Part shown: positions 54,027 to 64,000 of the stretch, in pieces
Numbering within the stretch: position 1 is the first letter of the stretch
Layout: each line of letters starts with the position of its first letter
Assembly: GCA_016186995.1 (NCBI GenBank)
Contig: JACPKQ010000024.1
Span: 9,489 to 73,488 of the forward strand
DNA: 64,000 nt
Origin: Deltaproteobacteria bacterium
GTDB taxonomy: Bacteria; Bdellovibrionota; JACOXK01
Reading direction: 5' to 3'
Notes under the pieces: generated by a model
Told to the model about the DNA's origin: nothing
The model's input: only the letters and a program-made list of their open reading frames with translations
Databases searched by the model: none
Position numbers and translations under genes: made by a program

Positions 54027-54100
54027 TACATCGTAAATCGACAAATACAGTGAGCCATTCATGAGCTCTATTATATTATTGATTTTAAAAAAAAAGAGTG

Positions 54101-54173
<73 letters not shown>

Positions 54174-54252
54174 ACTTGTGTATTCAACTAACTCATCAGT
54201 GATAATTTTTCAAAACTTTCTTTTTTTCTAGCTCAGCCTTCCAGGCTTACCG

Positions 54253-54378
54253 CTTTCTGTAAAGCTCGAACAAGTTCTCGCTAACAGAAAGTCTCCAGCT
54301 GCTCATCTAAAATTCAAATGCTGAGCTCTGCTCGCATTCTCATTAAGATGAGCTACGCTTCCGTGCTACCGGGCCACT
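54253..54378. repeat. Paired hairpins plus displaced tRNA-Phe 5' fragment
   Basis: CTTTCTGT (54253-54260) with ACAGAAAG (54284-54291); GCTCATCT (54301-54308) with AGATGAGC (54346-54353) and an inner AATG/CATT pair. Ends with GCTACCGGGCCACT (54365-54378), identical to the tRNA-Phe 5' end region at 54163-54176. Confidence 0.65.
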
Positions 54379-54484
54379 AACAAAACTGATCCCACTAACA
54401 TAAGGATCTAATTAGATTTTTTTTTGCATAACTTAACTTATTTGTCATCTCTTAAAAAAATGATTATTATTTAAGCGGGATAAC

Positions 54485-54509: not shown

Positions 54510-54570
54510 CTGTTCTAGGTCATAAAAACCTTCTTTAGAAAAGTATAGCTCTACCCGATATAGTACTTAT

Positions 54571-55203
54571 ATGAGTAAAAATAGGTTTTTTACTATGAGA
54601 ATAAAAATCATAACTATCATGTGCGCTCTCTCACTGTGGAGTTGCACTAAACCTACAAAAACTATACTGCAAATAGGAACCGAAAGAGGAATCGACGAAT
54701 CTAAAGTTCAGATTTCTCACACTGATGAGTTTAGGCGTACAAATGCTCATGGACATGAATATTTCAAAAACCGAGCACTCTGTGCAGAATGTCATGGACA
54801 TAGTTTTGAAGGCGGGAAAGCTGAAGTCTCTTGTAAAGACTGTCATGATTATCCGCATCCTCACAAATGGGCACTACCCGAAAACCATGGGAAAGCTTAT
54901 TTAGAAAGTATCCCTCCATCAGGTGAAGATGAGGGAAATCCTTCACTATGTTTAAAATGCCATGGTCGGAATAGTCATCTTAAAGAAGTAAACCCAGAAG
55001 AGTTTGTTTCTTGTTCTACATGCCACGCTCCTATTCCGCACACATGGAGTCTTCATGGAAAATATGCTCGACGATACCTGGGCAAATGTACCATTTGTCA
55101 TAAAGATCAAAAACGACTCATGCCTAATTATGAAGGCAATGGGTGTTACGGTTGTCACAAACCGGGTACAACTCCAACAATGCAATTTCCTCTAGATGAA
55201 TAA
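54571..55203 (+). CDS. Hexaheme c-type cytochrome lipoprotein
   Basis: 210 residues (an ATG at 54595 is equally plausible and begins the signal peptide directly). The lipobox SLWSC anchors it to a membrane. Six CxxCH heme sites: CAECH, CKDCH, CLKCH, CSTCH, CTICH and CYGCH, most followed by a His-rich segment able to supply distal ligands (DYPHPHKW, APIPHTWSLHG). Spacing is unlike tetraheme c3 or NrfB as far as I can judge. It should transfer electrons at the periplasmic side or outer membrane. First gene of the cytochrome region; the next gene is convergent. Confidence 0.9.
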   Translation: MSKNRFFTMRIKIITIMCALSLWSCTKPTKTILQIGTERGIDESKVQISHTDEFRRTNAHGHEYFKNRALCAECHGHSFEGGKAEVSCKDCHDYPHPHKWALPENHGKAYLESIPPSGEDEGNPSLCLKCHGRNSHLKEVNPEEFVSCSTCHAPIPHTWSLHGKYARRYLGKCTICHKDQKRLMPNYEGNGCYGCHKPGTTPTMQFPLDE

Positions 55204-55204
55204 T

Positions 55205-55708
55205 TTAATTCACAACAATAATACTTGCAACGTGTTCACTTAATGAAGCCGTACCAATAAGCTTCCAAGTTGAAGGAATATTATCAATACCTTCTTTAAC
55301 AAGACCTAAAATTTCATCCATTGAGGCCCCTACTTTATAAATATTTCCAGAAAACATACGATCTGCCTCTGTTGCATTGGCTACCACAACAAAATACCAC
55401 TTATGAATGGGTCCCTCGAGTTTATAAATAACCGAAATTTGGGAAGGTGTGTTTTCACGATCTACAGCAACCATAGTTTGTTCTTTTGAAAGATAAATCT
55501 TCTGCTCTAAAAGAGGTTTATCCAGATCTATTTGAATTGAAGTAAAAACTCCACTTTCAAAAAGAAGACTCATAACCCCTGTCACAGGCCCTTTATGCAT
55601 GACTTTTGGATTTAATGCGAACGGACCCTCAAAACCTGGCGCTAACTCTGCATAAGCTAGACTCGTAACGAACAAAAACAGCGACACAACATAGGATACC
55701 CTTTTCAT
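55205..55708 (-). CDS. Small exported protein of unknown function
   Basis: 167 residues. A signal peptide (about 1-20, ending LAYA) and AAGGAGG before the start. The mature part is beta-rich (VTGVMSLLFESGVFTSIQID, SVIYKLEGPIHKWYFVVVAN) and ends in a short helical segment plus SEHVASIIVVN. No CxxCH, so not a cytochrome, yet it lies inside the cytochrome region and shares an upstream regulatory dyad (55778-55789) with the decaheme gene. Could be an assembly or accessory protein. Confidence 0.75.
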   Translation of the reverse strand: MKRVSYVVSLFLFVTSLAYAELAPGFEGPFALNPKVMHKGPVTGVMSLLFESGVFTSIQIDLDKPLLEQKIYLSKEQTMVAVDRENTPSQISVIYKLEGPIHKWYFVVVANATEADRMFSGNIYKVGASMDEILGLVKEGIDNIPSTWKLIGTASLSEHVASIIVVN

Positions 55709-55777
55709 AACCTACCTCCTTATAGTTGAAGTATGTCTTACTGTTTAAATAGTGAGATATATAAAAGAAAACATACA

Positions 55778-55789
55778 TGACATAGATCA
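55778..55789. promoter_or_regulatory. CRP/FNR-type dyad, copy 1
   Basis: TGACATAGATCA, fitting TGA-N6-TCA, between the divergent genes at 55708 and 55862. The same motif lies at 60220-60231. Confidence 0.45.
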
Positions 55790-55861
55790 GTAATTTAAAA
55801 AGAAAATATGTTAATGTGAGCTTCCATTGATAAGTATATGATACTGCTACCTTAAATATTT

Positions 55862-57064
55862 ATGAAAATTTTGAAGTTTTTTTTATTTTTATTTTGGACT
55901 CTGGGACTGGGTGAACTCTTATCAACAACTCCTCCTGCCAATACAAAAAAAATGGATTATAAAACGTGTGCAACTTCTCAATGCCATTCAGAAATTTATA
56001 ATATTCAATATCCACATAGCCCCATTAAAGCAGGCGGGTGCAACCTGTGCCATGAACCCATTCTAAAAACACACACATTTAAATTATTCTCGAATTCACG
56101 AAAAATGTGCACGGACTGTCATGATGATTTTGTAAAAGAAAATTTTGGGAAAAAAGACAATAAATACACACTCAAAACTGATACAGAACTTTTTTCTGCA
56201 CATGCCATTGATGATTTATTAAAAGATAAAAAATTCTTGAGCACAGACCTTACACTCTACAATGGCACATTTGAATGCCTTACGTGTCATGATCCCCATG
56301 GCACAAATCAAGTACGCCTCTTGAGACCTATTAAAAACAAAGGACAAGAACCTGCCCTCTGTTACACATGTCATGAAAACAAATTCACCCCCAATCTCCA
56401 CACCATGGGAAAAGATCAATGTTTTGAATGTCATGGTTTTCACAGAAACAAACTTCAAACCCCTTTAATTAAATTCGAGAAAGAAGGTGCAGACATTGTC
56501 TGCATGGAGTGTCATAAAGAGAAAAAAGCTTTACTCAAGGCAAAACATGATTCTTCTACTTGGTCTGAAGAAGTTAAAAAACATGCACAAAAATTTTTTA
56601 AACAGCCTGAGAAAATATTTACACCTTGTCAAAGTTGTCACAGTGTTCACGATAGTGCACACAAGGGCTCTCTTCTCGTTTCAAAAAAATCTTCTGAAAA
56701 ACTCTATCGAATTGATACGTTCTGCTTAGAATGCCATAAAAACTCTGAAGCAAAAAATATCACACAAATTCCACATTATTTTCAACACAGATCTATTCTC
56801 ATATCTTCTATTAAGGACCCCTCTTCTGATAAGGAAATTACACCTAGATTCTACTCTCATCTTGGTGAAAGGGTGAAGGATCCACTTGAACCTATGCATT
56901 TAAGCTGTGCAACTTGCCATAATCCTCATGAGAAATCTCAGAAATATCTCACTTCAAGTGAAAAAACACTTAAATTTTGTGCAACTTGCCATGGGCAAGA
57001 AGCATATAGACTTTATACAAAATTTCATACTTTTAAAAAGAGAGAAAAAAATGGAAAAAAATAA
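55862..57064 (+). CDS. Decaheme c-type cytochrome with an extra CX4CH site
   Basis: 400 residues. Signal peptide about 1-22. Ten CxxCH motifs: CNLCH, CTDCH, CLTCH, CYTCH, CFECH, CMECH, CQSCH, CLECH and CATCH twice. Before them CATSQCH (near residue 38) has four residues between the cysteines, a spacing known in some multiheme cytochromes that bind heme unusually. Paired modules CxxCHxPHG/CHNPHEKS recall doubled-CXXCH domains. Periplasmic electron carrier. Its stop overlaps the next start by 14 bases, so it forms an operon with the tetraheme and NrfD genes. Confidence 0.92.
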   Translation: MKILKFFLFLFWTLGLGELLSTTPPANTKKMDYKTCATSQCHSEIYNIQYPHSPIKAGGCNLCHEPILKTHTFKLFSNSRKMCTDCHDDFVKENFGKKDNKYTLKTDTELFSAHAIDDLLKDKKFLSTDLTLYNGTFECLTCHDPHGTNQVRLLRPIKNKGQEPALCYTCHENKFTPNLHTMGKDQCFECHGFHRNKLQTPLIKFEKEGADIVCMECHKEKKALLKAKHDSSTWSEEVKKHAQKFFKQPEKIFTPCQSCHSVHDSAHKGSLLVSKKSSEKLYRIDTFCLECHKNSEAKNITQIPHYFQHRSILISSIKDPSSDKEITPRFYSHLGERVKDPLEPMHLSCATCHNPHEKSQKYLTSSEKTLKFCATCHGQEAYRLYTKFHTFKKREKNGKK

Positions 57065-57563
57065 ATTTTTCTACATTTTTTCATATATAACAACCTGCTT
57101 TTTTGGTGTTACTCTTTACGCAACATCCATTCAACTCACAGAACGACCCCTCCCTAAAAGATATAATGAATGTCAACACTGCCATTTACAAAAACAAAAG
57201 CGCTTTGTTCCAGCTACGAAAAAAACTGTTCGAGAACACTCAGATAAAAAGCTGAAACATGGAAACATTGAGATGTCCTGTAACCATTGTCATGATATTG
57301 CACATCGAAACTATTTGCGTTCTACCCCTTCACACCCTGCTTCTTTTGAAAACTCTTCCCCAGTGTGTGCGCAATGTCATGAAGATCGACATAAAGATTG
57401 GAAAAATGGAATTCACGGGCATCGCATAGGCGAGTGGAACGGAAACCAAATCCAATTCCACTGTATCGACTGTCACAACCCACACAATGTTTCATTTAAA
57501 AAAATGGAGGCTCGTCCTGCACCTCACAAACCACACTGTTGTGGAAAAACAAAGGAGAAGTAA
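57051..57563 (+). CDS. Tetraheme c-type cytochrome A (paired with NrfD-type gene)
   Basis: 170 residues from the ATG at 57051; the frame extends upstream into the decaheme gene. Signal peptide about 1-24. Four heme sites: CQHCH, CNHCH, CAQCH and CIDCH. The C-terminal half (DWKNGIHGHRIGEWNGNQIQ, then CHNPHNVSFKKMEARPAPH) is clearly paralogous to the tetraheme protein encoded at 59666-60181. It probably accepts electrons from, or donates them to, the membrane protein encoded next, to which it is coupled by a TAATG overlap. Confidence 0.92.
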   Translation: MEKNKFFYIFSYITTCFFGVTLYATSIQLTERPLPKRYNECQHCHLQKQKRFVPATKKTVREHSDKKLKHGNIEMSCNHCHDIAHRNYLRSTPSHPASFENSSPVCAQCHEDRHKDWKNGIHGHRIGEWNGNQIQFHCIDCHNPHNVSFKKMEARPAPHKPHCCGKTKEK

Positions 57564-58792
57564 TGTTTACATACATACAATTTTGGTTAAAAATGATCGG
57601 TTGCGCACTTACAGGCAATCGCACTTATTATAGCTGGCTAGGCTTCCTATCTATTCTTATTCTGTTTGGTCTTGTAGCTTTTGTGAACCAACTTATGAAT
57701 GGGTTTGTTGTTACAAACTTATCCAATCATGTCAGCTGGGGAGCTTATATTGCAAACTTCACTTATCTTGTGGGTGTGGCTGCAGCAGCAGTATTGCTCG
57801 TCTTTCCTTCTTATGTCTACCATAAAGAAGAGCTCAAAGAGGTGGTTCTTTTAGGAGAGCTCTTGGCAGTCTCTGCCATGCTCATGTGTTTACTATTTAT
57901 CCTTGCAGATTTAGGTAGACCTGATCACTTTTGGCACATTCTTCCTGTCATTGGTGAGCTCAACTTTCCTATTTCTATTTTAGCTTGGGATGTTGTGGTT
58001 TTAAATGTGTATCTGATTCTCAACCTCTTCATACCGGGATACATTCTTTATCGAAGATATATTGGGAAAGCACCGGCTGGAAAACATTATTTACCCTTTG
58101 TTTATATTTCTATTGTTTGGGCCATTAGCATTCATACCGTAACAGCTTTCCTCTATGTCGGATTGGGAGGGCGCCCCTTTTGGAATGCCGCTATTTTAGC
58201 ACCTCGTTTTTTGATCAGCGCTTTTGCAGGAGGCCCAGCCATTCTTCTCATCATCTTTCATTACATAAAAAAATATACGGATATGAAAGTAAGCACTTAT
58301 GTGAGTGGTTATCTTAAAATGGTTATGGTGTATGCCCTCACAGCCAATTTATTTTTATTAGGTTGTGAAATTTATAAAGAATATTATACGCAAAGTCTCC
58401 ATGTTGCCTCAATGAATTATCTTTTTTTTGGACTTCATGGTCATCACATGCTGGTCGGTTATATCTGGTCAGCCATTGTTATGGAAATTGTGGCCCTCAT
58501 AGTACTTTACACACCCAAACTTCGAGATAACTGGAAAATACTCCGCATAGCGTGTGTGTTTGTAATACTAGGTATTTGGGTTGAAAAAGGCATGGGTCTT
58601 TTGATTCCAGGGTTTATTCCTTCTCCTTTAGGAGACATTGTAGAATACACCCCTTCCCTTAATGAATTCTTTGTTTGTCTTGGCATTTGGGCTTTTGGAG
58701 CGCTGGCTTTTACAACAATGGCAAAGGTTTCTATCTCAATAGAATTAGGAAAATTAAAGCATGAAAAGGAAATACCTCAGTCACTGACATAA
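57563..58792 (+). CDS. NrfD/PsrC-family quinone-interacting membrane protein
   Basis: 409 residues from the ATG at 57563 (AAAGGAGAAG upstream; the frame also opens at 57539). About ten membrane helices, the long form found in HybB/DsrP/HmcC/QrcD-type proteins. SNHVSWGAYIANFTYLVGVA and ADLGRPDHFWHILPV contain the family's quinone-site residues, and EKGMGLLIPGFIPSPLGDIV with YTPSLNEFFVCLGIWAFGA the C-terminal signature. It has no heme and exchanges electrons with a periplasmic ferredoxin, the gene for which lies tail to tail on the other strand, overlapping by 16 bases. Confidence 0.93.
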   Translation: MFTYIQFWLKMIGCALTGNRTYYSWLGFLSILILFGLVAFVNQLMNGFVVTNLSNHVSWGAYIANFTYLVGVAAAAVLLVFPSYVYHKEELKEVVLLGELLAVSAMLMCLLFILADLGRPDHFWHILPVIGELNFPISILAWDVVVLNVYLILNLFIPGYILYRRYIGKAPAGKHYLPFVYISIVWAISIHTVTAFLYVGLGGRPFWNAAILAPRFLISAFAGGPAILLIIFHYIKKYTDMKVSTYVSGYLKMVMVYALTANLFLLGCEIYKEYYTQSLHVASMNYLFFGLHGHHMLVGYIWSAIVMEIVALIVLYTPKLRDNWKILRIACVFVILGIWVEKGMGLLIPGFIPSPLGDIVEYTPSLNEFFVCLGIWAFGALAFTTMAKVSISIELGKLKHEKEIPQSLT

Positions 58793-59673
58793 TAAAAAAA
58801 CTGAGGAATAGTATTAAGCTCTTCTTTTAATACGAAAGTATGTTTTTCTTTTAAAATTTTATAAACATCACTTGTGGGGTCTAAAATATTTCCAAATTTC
58901 CTAGCCCCTGTTGGACAGGCTTCTAAACATGCTGGGTAACGTCCTTGTCGAGTGCGGTGTAAGCAAAACGTACACTTTTCCATAACACCTCGAGGACGAA
59001 TACGGTTACTCAAATAACTCTGATTTGGATTTATCTCATCTTGTGGAATTTTTGGATCTGCAAAATTAAAACTTCGTGCTTCATAAGGGCACGCAACCTG
59101 ACAGTAACGACAACCAATGCACCAGTCATAATCAATCACTACAATACCGTCTACTTCCTTCCAGGTTGCCTTAACCGGACACACTTTCACACAAGGGGGA
59201 TTGTCACATTGATTACATTGAACAGGCATGTAATATTTATTTTTTTTAGGAACCTCTCCCTCATAATATCTATTTCCCTTTTCTAAATTGAGTGTTCCTC
59301 GATCAATCTCTAAAACTTTAATATATTGAATTTGAGGATCTCTACTTTGATTATTTTCTTTTACACACGCTTCAACACATTTTCGATTTCCATTACACAA
59401 AGATAAATTTAAAGCATAGGCGAATTTAACCCCTGGAATGGGTTGAGGATCAGAAACAGTCGCATCCACTTTATATTCATTTTTAATTTCTCTCTTGATT
59501 CTTGAAAAAACTTTTTTCTTATCTTCCGAGGTCATTTTTTTATAATGTTTTTGAAAAAAATTCTCCCATGATAACCCACCCACAGCAAAAGCTGGAAGTG
59601 AACTCGAAGCAGTGGCCGCAGCACCCAGAGCTGTAAGACCTTTTAAAAATGTTCTTCGTTTAATATCAGTCAT
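58777..59673 (-). CDS. Tat-exported four-cluster ferredoxin (NrfC/DsrO/HmcB type)
   Basis: 298 residues from the ATG at 59673 (GGGGGAG upstream). A twin-arginine signal, RRTFLKGLTALGAAATASS, sends the folded protein to the periplasm. Sixteen Cys form four 4Fe-4S sites: CNGNRKCVEAC, CNQCDNPPCVKVCP, CIGCRYCQVACP and CTFCLHRTRQGRYPACLEAC. Such subunits bridge an NrfD-type protein and cytochromes or a catalytic subunit. It overlaps the upstream tetraheme gene by eight bases and the convergent NrfD gene by 16. Confidence 0.95.
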   Translation of the reverse strand: MTDIKRRTFLKGLTALGAAATASSSLPAFAVGGLSWENFFQKHYKKMTSEDKKKVFSRIKREIKNEYKVDATVSDPQPIPGVKFAYALNLSLCNGNRKCVEACVKENNQSRDPQIQYIKVLEIDRGTLNLEKGNRYYEGEVPKKNKYYMPVQCNQCDNPPCVKVCPVKATWKEVDGIVVIDYDWCIGCRYCQVACPYEARSFNFADPKIPQDEINPNQSYLSNRIRPRGVMEKCTFCLHRTRQGRYPACLEACPTGARKFGNILDPTSDVYKILKEKHTFVLKEELNTIPQFFYYVSD

Positions 59674-60181
59674 GGGCTCCCCCTTTTTTATGCAAAGATG
59701 GGTAATGTGGCGCTGGTCTTGATTGCATAGGTTTAAATTTTGGATTGTGTGCGTCATGGCATTGTGTACAAGCAAACTTTTTTTGTTCCATATTCCATCC
59801 TCCACTTTGAAATCCATGCATATTATCTTTCCACTTTTTGTACCTCAGTCCATGACACTGTCCACAGAGCTGAGTTGCATTATTGTAATTTTGAACAATG
59901 CCATCTAGCATCACAAGTCGATCTGGATTTTCACGATCATGACATAAAAAACAATTTGTAATCTCTGTCATATGTTTGTATGTAAACTCTGTATGTTTTT
60001 TCATTTTTTCAAAATCTGCATGTGTAAATTTTTTCTTATGACTTAATTCCTTTCGATGTTCATGACATCTTGAGCAAGGATAAAGTTCAATATATCCCTC
60101 GCGAGGAACAACCGTAATCTCTGCAAACCCCTTTAAGGAAAAAAGTACTGACACAATCATAGACAAGATAATTGTAACCAT
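59666..60181 (-). CDS. Tetraheme c-type cytochrome B (paired with ferredoxin gene)
   Basis: 171 residues with a signal peptide (about 1-20). Four heme sites: CSRCH, CFLCH, CGQCH and CTQCH. KWKDNMHGFQSGGWNMEQKK, then CHDAHNPKFKPMQSRPAPHY, align with tetraheme A (57051). It resembles the small tetraheme subunits of Cbc-type quinone oxidoreductases described in Geobacter (from memory). The stop overlaps the ferredoxin start, so the two are made together. Confidence 0.92.
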   Translation of the reverse strand: MVTIILSMIVSVLFSLKGFAEITVVPREGYIELYPCSRCHEHRKELSHKKKFTHADFEKMKKHTEFTYKHMTEITNCFLCHDRENPDRLVMLDGIVQNYNNATQLCGQCHGLRYKKWKDNMHGFQSGGWNMEQKKFACTQCHDAHNPKFKPMQSRPAPHYPSLHKKGGAHD

Positions 60182-60219
60182 TTTTATCCTTGTACTATCA
60201 TATTTATAATAAAATTAGG

Positions 60220-60231
60220 TGATATAGGTCA
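60220..60231. promoter_or_regulatory. CRP/FNR-type dyad, copy 2
   Basis: TGATATAGGTCA between the divergent genes at 60181 and 60287. A TATGTT at 60255-60260 would put a start site near 60267, with the dyad centred about 41 bases upstream, the classic activator position. Confidence 0.5.
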
Positions 60232-60286
60232 TTTTTTACAATAAGATTTCCAACTATGTTGTCTTCCAAAGAAAGCTTTTTGACCT

Positions 60287-62317
60287 ATGAAACTAAGATT
60301 TACGATATTTTTGTTTCTCATCACCATTTCAGATATTCACGCAGATGAATCTATTCAAGCAAAACTCATCTATGAAACAAATATTTCAGGTCCATCTATC
60401 GTTGAATTATGCAATAATGTCCTTTGGATTTATAGCGTTGGGGAAAAAGAGCTTTGGTCTCTCAATCCACTTACCGGAACTGCACTTACAAAAATACCCT
60501 TATTAAAGTTAAAAATAACAGGCACTCTCACGGCATTGGGATGCAAAAAAAATCTATTATTAGCAGCCTCGTACCATAAAGACACGAGACACGTTTTTTT
60601 TCATACTTTTTCTGATTCTTTCACAGCAACACAGTCAACCCTTTTAGATTCTTCTTTTGTCAAAGATATTTTTTGTAATGAATCAACATGTTATGTCATT
60701 CGAGATCAGATTTATTCAAGTCAAAACTTGCGTCAATGGGTTCAAGTTCCCATCCAACATTCTGCAGACATTCCTAAACGGCCGTCAAAAGGCAGCCATT
60801 ATTTTTCAAACTGGCAGGATCAGTTTCTTGTTGCACAAGGAAGTTATTTTAGAGGTGTTGCGATGCCCAACAATAATTTGCTTCTTCTGGATACTGTCCG
60901 TGCTGCGGTTGTAACACACTCGAGAGACCATTCAGAAAAATGGGAATCGTGGGGATTTAGAAGAGGGAACCTCCTTTTTCCAAAAGGGTTTGCCCTTTTA
61001 AAAAACGACCTACTTGCCATTTCGGACACTGGATTAAAATTAATATCATTCTTTAATAAAGAAGGGCGCTATTTCGGAAGTTTTGGAGCCAATGGTCAAA
61101 ATTTTCGATTTCGTCACCCTCTTGATATCGCAACAAGAAATAACACTCTTTATGTGATAGATTTTTTAGACAATAAACTTTTTGCATTCGACATTGAAGT
61201 AAAAATAGAAGCAAAAGAAAATTTATCCTCTTTAGATATTCATGAAAATCTATTTCGCCATCCTGATGTCATCAATCACTTCTCTGAAACACGTTGTCTT
61301 AATTGCCATGACGGATTAGAAACATATAATCTAGAACGATTTCTCAATATTAAAGGGCGCCATCACCACCCACTTCATAAAGAAGTAAAGCAAGAAACCA
61401 AACTACCTCTGTGGACTGGGAAGAAAGTGGATTGTTTCTCATGCCACCACCCACACCATCAATCAGGAAAAGGAAAAATAGTAAATCAATTTGGAAATAT
61501 CACAACTGTTGAAAAACTACCCTTTCAATTACGCACATCTATTCCAGAACTGTGTCTAGAGTGCCATAAAGAAAAAGGCCTTAAGAATGAGAATCACTTT
61601 CACATTAAAAAAGATAAACTAACAAAAATAAAAGCTGAACAAGTTATTTCTTGTACTCAATGTCATAAAATGCACCAGGCAGAAAATCACCTTTTAAAAA
61701 AGGGCGTTGTGCAACTGTGTACAACGTGCCATGGACAATCACAAATTCCACAAAGCCATCCTATTATAACTCAAAACGAAAAAGTAACGTGTATTTCATG
61801 TCACTCACCACACGGAACAAAAAAAGAATTTCATTTTGCAAGACACAGTAATAAAGACGCTCAAGTTTGTTTAAGTTGTCATAAAGAAAAAAAAGAAGCT
61901 CTGGGTATGGTGGCTCACTTGAAGGTTGACCCAAAAGTAGATATTCGAAAATGGCCAGGAGCAGAGGTTGTTTGCCTCAAATGCCACCACCCTCACGACA
62001 CAAAACCTCGCACAAGCAGCCTGTGTATTTCTTGCCATAAAGATCGTGTGACTGCACATCACGAAAAAAATGTAGCTCTTCTGTACAAACGAACTGGGCT
62101 TCCTCTACCTGAAGATATTACACTCGAAGATGGAAAAATATCTTGTGCAACTTGTCATGACCCTCACAATGTTGCCCAATTAGAAAAATATTTACGCCCA
62201 CGACGTGAGGCGGTTAAAGCAATGTGTACAACGTGCCATAGCAAAGAAAACATGGATGGGCGTTTTAACGATTATCACAAACGACAAAAAAATATTCAAA
62301 AAGGAAAAACAATATGA
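60287..62317 (+). CDS. Beta-propeller-like and undecaheme cytochrome fusion
   Basis: 676 residues. Signal peptide about 1-19. The N-terminal ~300 residues form repeated four-strand units resembling NHL/YVTN-like propellers (ALLKNDLLAISDTGLKLISF, RHPLDIATRNNTLYVIDFLD). From about 330 to the end come eleven CxxCH sites: CLNCH, CFSCH, CLECH, CTQCH, CTTCH, CISCH, CLSCH, CLKCH, CISCH, CATCH and CTTCH, many as CHxPH pairs. A propeller on a heme wire suggests docking to a partner, a surface or a substrate. ATGA overlap with the 38-residue gene that follows. Confidence 0.9.
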   Translation: MKLRFTIFLFLITISDIHADESIQAKLIYETNISGPSIVELCNNVLWIYSVGEKELWSLNPLTGTALTKIPLLKLKITGTLTALGCKKNLLLAASYHKDTRHVFFHTFSDSFTATQSTLLDSSFVKDIFCNESTCYVIRDQIYSSQNLRQWVQVPIQHSADIPKRPSKGSHYFSNWQDQFLVAQGSYFRGVAMPNNNLLLLDTVRAAVVTHSRDHSEKWESWGFRRGNLLFPKGFALLKNDLLAISDTGLKLISFFNKEGRYFGSFGANGQNFRFRHPLDIATRNNTLYVIDFLDNKLFAFDIEVKIEAKENLSSLDIHENLFRHPDVINHFSETRCLNCHDGLETYNLERFLNIKGRHHHPLHKEVKQETKLPLWTGKKVDCFSCHHPHHQSGKGKIVNQFGNITTVEKLPFQLRTSIPELCLECHKEKGLKNENHFHIKKDKLTKIKAEQVISCTQCHKMHQAENHLLKKGVVQLCTTCHGQSQIPQSHPIITQNEKVTCISCHSPHGTKKEFHFARHSNKDAQVCLSCHKEKKEALGMVAHLKVDPKVDIRKWPGAEVVCLKCHHPHDTKPRTSSLCISCHKDRVTAHHEKNVALLYKRTGLPLPEDITLEDGKISCATCHDPHNVAQLEKYLRPRREAVKAMCTTCHSKENMDGRFNDYHKRQKNIQKGKTI

Positions 62318-62430
62318 AATGGGTTCTGTTTCAAATTGTAGGTTTATGCTTAGGTATTTCTATTGGCGCCTTTCTTATCTTTCATATTTTATTTCTCTAT
62401 CGTGTTTTACCTCATGGAGGACTTTTTTAA
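62314..62430 (+). CDS. 38-residue single-helix membrane protein
   Basis: AAAGGAAAA precedes the ATG, which overlaps the cytochrome stop as ATGA. The sequence is MKWVLFQIVGLCLGISIGAF, then a hydrophobic continuation and a short RVLPHGGLF tail: one transmembrane helix of about 22 residues. Its stop is two bases before the next start. Size and position recall the small membrane subunits that stabilise respiratory complexes; the precise role is unknown. Confidence 0.8.
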   Translation: MKWVLFQIVGLCLGISIGAFLIFHILFLYRVLPHGGLF

Positions 62431-62432
62431 AT

Positions 62433-63164
62433 ATGCGCCTTCCATGGAAAAGTATAAAAAAATTTATGTGGGCACTTCTACCGGCAATGATAATAGGTAT
62501 TTTCATAGGAACCTATCCTGGATACAAAGCCTACGAATATATGTGGAAGGATGCAAAATTTTGCATGACGTGTCACCAACATGATTATGCCAATCAAAGT
62601 TGGAAATCGAGCATACACGGCAGGACAACAACATGCCATGATTGTCACCACCAACCTCTTCGACAGTATGTAGAAGAAATGTATGTTCTCATGACGCAAA
62701 AAGATGTTTTTCCAGTCACCATGAAACACCTTCCCTACGTTACGAAAGATCTGTGTGAAAGTTGTCATGTAAACCATCCACACAGTATTTCTAGTATTTC
62801 TGGCCCCTTTGAAGGAAAGAATTTAGACAAAATTCCTAAAATTGAAAAAACGCGGTTGCACGCTTTACATTTATCAAAAAAAACAGACACCCCACTTCCT
62901 AAATCTCTTCATCTTTTAAAAGATGATACTTCTCATTATGGAAAGTTCGGGCACACAGGCCCGGGGCAAACTCGTGAATCTAAAAAAAGAGGACTCGTGT
63001 GTGTCGACTGCCATGGTGGCATCTCAAATCGTGCTCATAATTTCTCAGCTACTGATGCATCTTGCATCAACTGCCATGAAAAGGTTGCAAAGCATCCCAC
63101 ACCTTTACAAAAAAAGTTCGGGTGCAGAAACTGTCACTTTATTGAGTTTCTTGTAGAAAACTAA
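62433..63164 (+). CDS. Membrane-anchored hexaheme cytochrome, NapC/NirT-like N-terminus
   Basis: 243 residues from the ATG at 62433; the longer frame (62205) runs through two upstream genes. One N-terminal helix (about 10-32, FMWALLPAMIIGIFIGTYPG), then CMTCHQHDYANQSWKSSIHG and TCHDCHHQP, the NapC/NrfH-type order of an anchor and two close hemes with W-x-S-x-H. Further sites: CESCH, CVDCH, CINCH and CRNCH (six total). Such proteins oxidise quinol at the membrane and pass electrons to periplasmic multihemes, here most likely the undecaheme fusion encoded upstream. Confidence 0.9.
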   Translation: MRLPWKSIKKFMWALLPAMIIGIFIGTYPGYKAYEYMWKDAKFCMTCHQHDYANQSWKSSIHGRTTTCHDCHHQPLRQYVEEMYVLMTQKDVFPVTMKHLPYVTKDLCESCHVNHPHSISSISGPFEGKNLDKIPKIEKTRLHALHLSKKTDTPLPKSLHLLKDDTSHYGKFGHTGPGQTRESKKRGLVCVDCHGGISNRAHNFSATDASCINCHEKVAKHPTPLQKKFGCRNCHFIEFLVEN

Positions 63165-63165
63165 A

Positions 63166-63729
63166 TTATTTTTTATCACCCCATTTATGGCAGTCAGTAC
63201 AGGTGCGTCTTAACATCACCTCAGTTTCAGTTCTTTCAACAAGCCCTTGTGGAAGCTTTTGTTCTTCTTTTTGAATTTTGAGAAAGGATGGGAGTCCTTC
63301 GATATCGTCTAAATTTGAATGTTGATGACGCAGATATTTCTTAGATGAAGTATTCTCTAATAAGGCTCGGTGGGGACGATGACAACTGAGACATTCAACC
63401 TTTCCTGTAAGCTCCACACCCTTAAGCTTAGAAAGATTTTTCCCTATGTGCTCCACAACCCCGCTGTGCGGAAATGAATTATGACATGAAGTACATCTCT
63501 GCTGCATGTAGGGCCTTAACTGAAAATCTTTTCCTTTTTTATAATGACACGCTTTACACTCGGCATGGCGATCTAGAGACATCTTTTTCAAATCATTTTT
63601 CTGTGAGCCATGAGGATTAAGTCTTTCTAATTTTAAACGAGGCAGCTCCCCTGAAGCCACTTGAGCAAACAGCAAAACAAATATAAATTTTAAATAACTC
63701 TTTTTATTAAGGTGCACCGTTAGCTCCAT
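63166..63729 (-). CDS. Tetraheme c-type cytochrome
   Basis: 187 residues from the ATG at 63729; the overlap with the upstream gene makes the exact start uncertain. Signal peptide near 10-27 (YLKFIFVLLFAQVASG). Four heme sites: CKACH, CTSCH, CLSCH and CTDCH, with NSFPHSG and RPHRALLEN around them. Not obviously paralogous to the two RPAPH-type tetrahemes. Ends two bases from the convergent hexaheme gene and is coupled to the diheme gene upstream by a 23-base overlap. Confidence 0.87.
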   Translation of the reverse strand: MELTVHLNKKSYLKFIFVLLFAQVASGELPRLKLERLNPHGSQKNDLKKMSLDRHAECKACHYKKGKDFQLRPYMQQRCTSCHNSFPHSGVVEHIGKNLSKLKGVELTGKVECLSCHRPHRALLENTSSKKYLRHQHSNLDDIEGLPSFLKIQKEEQKLPQGLVERTETEVMLRRTCTDCHKWGDKK

Positions 63730-64000
63730 GACAAAGTGAACAACTGCTGAGCCCATCAGATTCTACCAAATCTTTTGCAGTATCAAAAAGGGCATTTCCA
63801 TAACGATTCACTTGATGAATGTTAGACTTTACATGACAATAAAAACATTGCGTTTGTCTAAAACCGTGTGGGTGATTTTGTGCATTAAGTGTAATGTTAG
63901 AATTATTGTAATACTCATACTCACGATGAGCATCGCACCCAAACACTCCCCATAAAATAACCCCCAAAAGAAAAATAAAATTTATTTTTTTTAAAAATAT
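63707..64000 (-). CDS. Diheme c-type lipoprotein, 5' end beyond the window
   Basis: The frame is open from its stop at 63707 to the window end without an ATG. A TTG at 63967 is the only in-window start candidate and would cut the signal sequence; read-through gives IFLKKINFIFLLGVILWGVF then GC, a lipoprotein signal, so the true start lies past 64000. Two heme sites: CFYCH and CSLCH. The mature part is short (about 75 residues), HxxH-rich between the hemes. Coupled by overlap to the tetraheme gene. Confidence 0.78.
   Translation of the reverse strand: MFLKKINFIFLLGVILWGVFGCDAHREYEYYNNSNITLNAQNHPHGFRQTQCFYCHVKSNIHQVNRYGNALFDTAKDLVESDGLSSCSLCHGANGAP

Follow-up and report, generated by a model that had tools for sequence, protein, structure and literature searches.

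The stretch of DNA analysed here, referred to as the window, comprises 64 kb (positions 9489-73488 of contig C12 in genome G000) of a 1.68 Mb genome that is assembled in 30 contigs and is 93% complete. It ends in a block of multiheme cytochrome genes, interspersed with genes for membrane and iron–sulphur (Fe-S) proteins, that probably belongs to a quinol-linked electron transfer chain leading out of the cell. The window contains exactly eight open reading frames (ORFs) with at least two CxxCH motifs, all of them within 54526-64000. An earlier note, made from the letters of the window, had listed eight cytochromes with 6, 10, 4, 4, 11, 6, 4 and 2 sites and a total of 47, and the ORF scan returned the same counts. 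Across the genome, the corresponding DNA pattern was counted 285 times and a reversed control pattern 54 times.

The first part of the block encodes two cytochromes and a secreted protein. HEXL (54571..55203, plus strand) is a lipoprotein-type hexaheme with homologues in loci of the class and the phylum, many of which have lipobox-like N-termini. DECA (55862..57064, plus strand) is a periplasmic-type decaheme that matches PF09699 with 110.8 bits. Between them, on the minus strand, lies P167 (55205-55708), a conserved secreted protein that was absent from the parts list of the earlier note; the profile search gave no match to any family model, and its homologues adjoin HEXL or DECA in four class loci. 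A tRNA-Phe gene precedes the block, and the text at the end of the tRNA ('ctaccgggccac') reappears near 54367 in what resembles a partial, degenerate copy (window 54100-54380).

The central genes encode a DsrP-like NrfD integral membrane protein (NRFD, 57563..58792, plus strand) and a DsrO-like 4Fe-4S protein (FES, 58777..59673, minus strand), flanked by the tetrahemes TETA (57051..57563, plus strand) and TETB (59666..60181, minus strand). The tetrahemes, each with four CxxCH, are paralogues (77 bits), TETA being encoded beside NRFD and TETB beside FES; in relatives TETB homologues also adjoin FES. NRFD matches PF03916 with 137.6 bits, which bears out its earlier assignment, and scores 395 bits against the NCBIfam DsrP model (NF045798, cut-off 350). 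It is a predicted quinol oxidase with 65-81% identity across the class. FES, previously read as a Tat ferredoxin, is indeed an Fe-S protein with Fer4 domains and a TAT signal, the latter barely above the cut-off of PF10518; it is predicted to be Tat-exported, and reaches 187 bits against the DsrO model (cut-off 200).

The third group consists of NHL11 (60287..62317), P38 (62314..62430) and NAPC6 (62433..63164), all on the plus strand. NHL11 is a fusion of an N-terminal six-bladed NHL propeller with an undecaheme domain (11 CxxCH), in agreement with the propeller-undecaheme fusion of the earlier note: Pfam confirms the undecaheme protein, and the propeller is supported by a structure model built from three sequences that covers this part and leaves out the heme domain. 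Residues 21-305 of the model are mostly of pLDDT 60-90 (low at 141-187), and a search of solved structures matched NHL domains and six-bladed Pizza6 designs with E about 1e-10. P38 is a 38-residue micropeptide with a single hydrophobic transmembrane (TM) segment and a C-terminal V(L/I)PHGG motif found in 12/12 aligned sequences. It is a real ORF: each of the complete NHL-undecaheme loci that were inspected has a homologue in the same place, invariably flanked by NHL11 and NAPC6, and a further copy occurs in L122. P38 may be a subunit or assembly factor of NAPC6. NAPC6 is a NapC-like membrane-anchored hexaheme (PF03264, 30.2 bits, cut-off 24.1) in which the hydrophobic N-terminal segment is conserved and six hemes are kept in all aligned copies; on these features it is likely to be a quinol dehydrogenase. 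Searches of solved structures returned only remote relatives for NrfD and none for NAPC6. On the minus strand the block closes with TETC (63166..63729), a periplasmic-type tetraheme (four CxxCH) that comes after DI in conduit operons, and with DI itself (63707..64000), a diheme lipoprotein whose gene is truncated where the contig stops.

The contig end and the candidate outer-membrane conduit

The block had been described as continuing past the window. A continuation exists, but the window edge is also the contig end: C12 stops exactly at window base 64000, inside the DI signal sequence, and the locus resumes on another contig of this genome, C30. In the relative Deltaproteobacteria bacterium RIFCSPHIGHO2_02_FULL_40_11 (L021) the diheme gene is followed by a heptaheme gene and then by a gene for a protein without hemes, about 404 residues long. 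A homologue of the latter is found at the start of C30, with a heptaheme gene between it and the contig end. The end of C12 and the start of C30 have exactly 17 bases in common and, with this overlap used once, a complete diheme lipoprotein (MMNIFLKKINFIFLLGVILWGVFGCD...) is obtained, whose ATG lies on C30 and overlaps the heptaheme stop. The overlap is AT-rich and by itself is moderate evidence for the join; with the synteny and the restored start codon the evidence is strong. Extension past 64 kb thus adds the heptaheme HEPTA (L060:23-631), which comes after DI, and then the 400-residue β-barrel-like protein BARREL (L060:609-1805), and brings the locus to nine cytochromes with 54 CxxCH. Unrelated housekeeping-type genes lie beyond BARREL. 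No catalytic reductase gene flanks the block on either side, including that of C30, in keeping with the earlier remark that no terminal reductase was visible.

Contig C6, which carries an MtrA/GSU2203-like cytochrome and a large barrel-like protein, was the initial candidate for the far side of the gap, but C30 is favoured by the 17-bp overlap, the completed gene and the synteny. The C6 pair (L015:5200-7820) comprises a cytochrome with seven CxxCH, which is related to the families DmsE/MtrA and GSU2203 but scores below their cut-offs, followed by the barrel-like protein, which is cut by the contig end. The pair is also present in G002, G003 and G004 and is a possible second conduit of the window genome. 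Its neighbours in G002 (L063:10895-14379) are two NapC-like tetrahemes and a protein with 11 CxxCH, the membrane part of which is of the cytochrome b561 type.

The homologues of BARREL (n=20) have signal-like N-termini, almost no cysteine and mostly aromatic C-termini, and contain no helix-like hydrophobic stretch. Their strand-like hydropathy alternation gives z = 5.0 against shuffled sequences, where the other families of the locus range from -0.7 to 1.4. These properties suggest a β-barrel fold. The MtrB/PioB porin model PF11854 had no match in the 8 class genomes. The HEPTA and BARREL genes overlap on C30 and in relatives, and are tightly linked in every locus with both. In porin-cytochrome (Pcc) conduits the genes for an outer-membrane barrel and a periplasmic multiheme cytochrome lie side by side, an arrangement that the locus would share if the predicted fold is correct.

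The heme sites of the inner parts vary little between copies. All copies of the heptaheme that were read have seven sites, apart from that of G005 (six); NAPC6 has six, TETC four and NHL11 10-12 (7 in L108). HEXL homologues range from 5 to 30 CxxCH across loci; those at L101:2787-5267 and L100:1407-3740 have 30 and 25, against 6 in the window. Such variation in a terminal cytochrome, next to inner parts that stay constant, is consistent with a position on the outer surface, and HEXL is therefore likely to be an outer-surface cytochrome. Extracellular PCC3 subunits vary likewise in heme number (PMC10734462).

Two modules across the phylum

The locus was compared across the order (n=2), the class (n=8) and the phylum (n=368). 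Two sets of genes, each combined with the same conduit (barrel–heptaheme–diheme), recur in the phylum, and their gene order is conserved in several families. Module I comprises the tetraheme, the NHL-propeller/11-heme fusion, the VLPHGG micropeptide and the NapC-like hexaheme. Module II comprises the DsrP-like NrfD, the DsrO-like Fe-S protein, the two paralogous tetrahemes and the decaheme. Type I loci have the order barrel–heptaheme–diheme–tetraheme–NHL11–P38–NAPC6, usually with HEXL (L099-L102, L104, L105, L108 and L109); L103 is of the same type without a clear TETC. In Type II loci (L112, L113, L123 and L124) barrel–heptaheme–diheme is found with the decaheme, NrfD, the Fe-S protein and TETA and/or TETB.

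At the thresholds used, the profiles of the barrel, NHL11 and NrfD matched 28, 15 and 31 of the 368 phylum genomes. The barrel is present in 15/15 genomes with NHL11 (hypergeometric p 2e-19) and in 17/31 with NrfD (p 5e-14), both values ignoring common descent, and 26/28 barrel genomes have NHL11 and/or NrfD. NHL11 and NrfD occur together in six genomes (G000, G003, G004, G063, G065 and G327). Both sets stand within one locus only in the window genome (G000) and, in part, in G003; the contigs of G004 are too short to tell. The NHL11–P38–NAPC6 cassette is found in the window genome and G003 at differing positions in the locus. The 100% complete G002 has the whole locus on one contig without NHL11, P38 and NAPC6. 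In G007 only NrfD, the Fe-S protein and the two tetrahemes remain; beside them (L073:14973-16666) is a 416-residue protein with one N-terminal CxxCH and no Pfam match, possibly a cytochrome-porin fusion. The window locus holds two predicted inner-membrane entry points, and most relatives hold one.

The earlier note had called the combination of genes unrecognised. The open-access papers that were searched do not describe this gene order; what the note had listed is two phylum-conserved modules in one locus, and not one new complex. The block is no standard Nrf- or Qrc-type operon. Gene pairs resembling the cytochrome c maturation genes ResB/CcsA, assigned by eye, directly adjoin the conduit loci of several genomes (L066:5036-8449, L108:1279-4820, L111:5127-8248 and L124:1655-4776).

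A possible electron route and its alternatives

The locus probably specifies a chain for quinol-linked extracellular electron transfer in which two alternative inner-membrane entry points would supply a single outer-membrane conduit. At the first, NAPC6 with P38 would oxidize quinol and pass electrons to NHL11 and TETC. At the second, quinol would be oxidized by NRFD with FES, and the electrons would go to DECA and to TETA and TETB, the tetraheme pair. Both routes would converge on HEPTA, seated in BARREL, from which electrons could reach DI and HEXL and then an extracellular acceptor such as a metal oxide, humics or a partner cell. With an extracellular acceptor, the lack of a terminal reductase gene would be accounted for. 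The earlier suggestion of a quinone-linked pathway to an extracellular or periplasmic acceptor gains support, in its quinone-linked and extracellular parts, from the heptaheme and the barrel-like protein. More tentatively, and with the chances slightly against the whole of it, we propose that the barrel–heptaheme–diheme–tetraheme–NHL11–P38–NAPC6 operon represents an undescribed porin-cytochrome family, that its hexaheme quinol dehydrogenase of the NapC type has the VLPHGG membrane micropeptide as a subunit, and that a second, DsrP-type dehydrogenase wired into the same conduit makes this a two-entry export system.

Several observations weigh against such a chain. In 14 genomes of the phylum NrfD is present and the barrel is not, so that NrfD may serve other partners. 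BARREL matches no family model in the profile search, and its single-sequence AlphaFold model is uninformative. The genome also encodes Alternative complex III (ACIII) and a caa3-type oxidase, which would be compatible with the opposite direction of flow. The ACIII genes lie beside those of the oxidase on contig C14 (L074:4909-16026) and constitute an aerobic chain in the same genome.

The 14 genomes with NrfD and no barrel, together with the retention of the NrfD module only in G007, would also be expected if the modules were two independent pathways sharing a neighbourhood, NAPC6 and NHL11 acting on the barrel conduit and the NrfD, Fe-S, tetraheme and decaheme proteins serving periplasmic acceptors, for example the nitrite reductase NrfA. 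NrfA is encoded in the window genome, and a partial NrfA gene lies upstream of the barrel in G005. However, the NrfA of the window genome is paired with an NrfH-like partner on another contig, no NrfA match was obtained in the complete G002 or in G004 and G007, all of which carry the NrfD unit, and the NrfD module adjoins barrel–heptaheme–diheme in all four Type II loci listed above, so that we think independent pathways rather unlikely. A conduit working inwards, in which Fe(II), a cathode or a partner cell would supply electrons that pass through the barrel to the quinone pool or the oxidase, would suit the presence of ACIII with the caa3-type oxidase; it would also agree with the Uet (undecaheme electron transfer) system, with its undecaheme, NHL proteins, tetraheme and barrel, which is known from cathode- and iron-oxidizing bacteria (PMC10734462). 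Against this, 2-oxoacid:ferredoxin oxidoreductase-like genes, identified by eye, lie near the blocks of G004, G005-type and G007 genomes and hint at organic electron donors. Membrane proteins of the NapC and NrfD/Fe-S types, moreover, usually oxidize quinol. Outward flow is therefore favoured, and we hold inward flow to be improbable. The barrel fold being a prediction, the locus might even act in the periplasm alone, as an electron store or for detoxification, with a 400-residue protein that is not an electron conduit; the barrel-like statistics of the 20 homologues and the tight linkage of BARREL to the heptaheme make this very improbable.

A two-entry export chain of this kind would be a natural case of two quinol dehydrogenase classes linked to one conduit, and would make the feeding of one outer-membrane conduit by two quinol oxidases directly testable. 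The likely range of porin-cytochrome electron export would then include uncultured bacteria with small genomes and scattered lineages of the phylum to which they belong, and the conserved micropeptide and the propeller-undecaheme fusion are parts worth testing.

Comparison with known electron transfer systems

The resemblance to the Nrf, Qrc and Hmc systems that had been pointed out does not amount to membership, as model cut-offs are missed and defining parts are lacking. An NrfABCD operon was rejected: NrfA lies on C14 with its own NrfH-like gene, the NrfC score is 110 of 377.6 bits and that of NrfB is weak. The C14 pair, an NrfH-like tetraheme and an NrfA-like nitrite reductase (L120:5790-7615), stands apart from the window locus. 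For Qrc the scores are 41.8 of 570 bits (QrcD) and 151.9 of 400 bits (QrcC), with no QrcB-like gene, and for Hmc 20.5 of 400 bits (the hexadecaheme HmcA) and 98.6 of 420 bits (HmcB). In the DsrMKJOP complex the likeness is confined to NRFD, which passes the DsrP cut-off, and FES, which falls slightly below that of DsrO. A Dsr pathway was rejected, as DsrM, DsrK and DsrJ are not among the ORFs of the locus and dsrA was not found in the 8 class genomes.

NAPC6 resembles the NapC/NrfH/CymA quinol dehydrogenases in having a single TM anchor at the N-terminus and a heme domain of the NapC kind, and belongs with the NapC/NirT family on both counts. It differs in its six hemes, in its association with P38 and in its score against the NrfH NCBIfam model, which is far below the cut-off (36.3 of 134.2 bits). 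The second entry point is comparable, by composition only, with CbcSTU of Geobacter and SirCD of Shewanella, quinol dehydrogenases that combine a DsrO-like Fe-S protein with NrfD and, in CbcSTU, a tetraheme (PMC11434368). The window locus, in contrast, has two paralogous tetrahemes and a decaheme, and adjoins a porin conduit. In Shewanella the NrfD-type SirCD is able to replace the NapC-type CymA for some acceptors (PMC11434368).

Of the conduits, Geobacter Pcc (OmbB–OmaB–OmcB; PMC4245776) similarly co-encodes a porin-like outer-membrane protein, a small periplasmic multiheme cytochrome and an outer-surface cytochrome. Here the octaheme is replaced by a heptaheme, a diheme lipoprotein is added, the outer-surface protein is separate and variable, and inner-membrane quinol dehydrogenases lie inside the locus; the likeness to the OmbB system is one of arrangement only. 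The Uet components of Ca. Tenderia electrophaga and some Gallionella (undecaheme, NHL repeat proteins, tetraheme and β-barrel; PMC10734462) each have a candidate counterpart here, by composition only. The window locus differs from Uet in that NHL is fused to the undecaheme, a heptaheme takes the place of three trihemes, no peptidylprolyl isomerase is seen, and the NapC6, P38 and NrfD modules are present. By analogy, the nearest published counterparts of the locus appear to be Pcc and Uet conduits combined with entry points of the CymA and SirCD/CbcSTU types.

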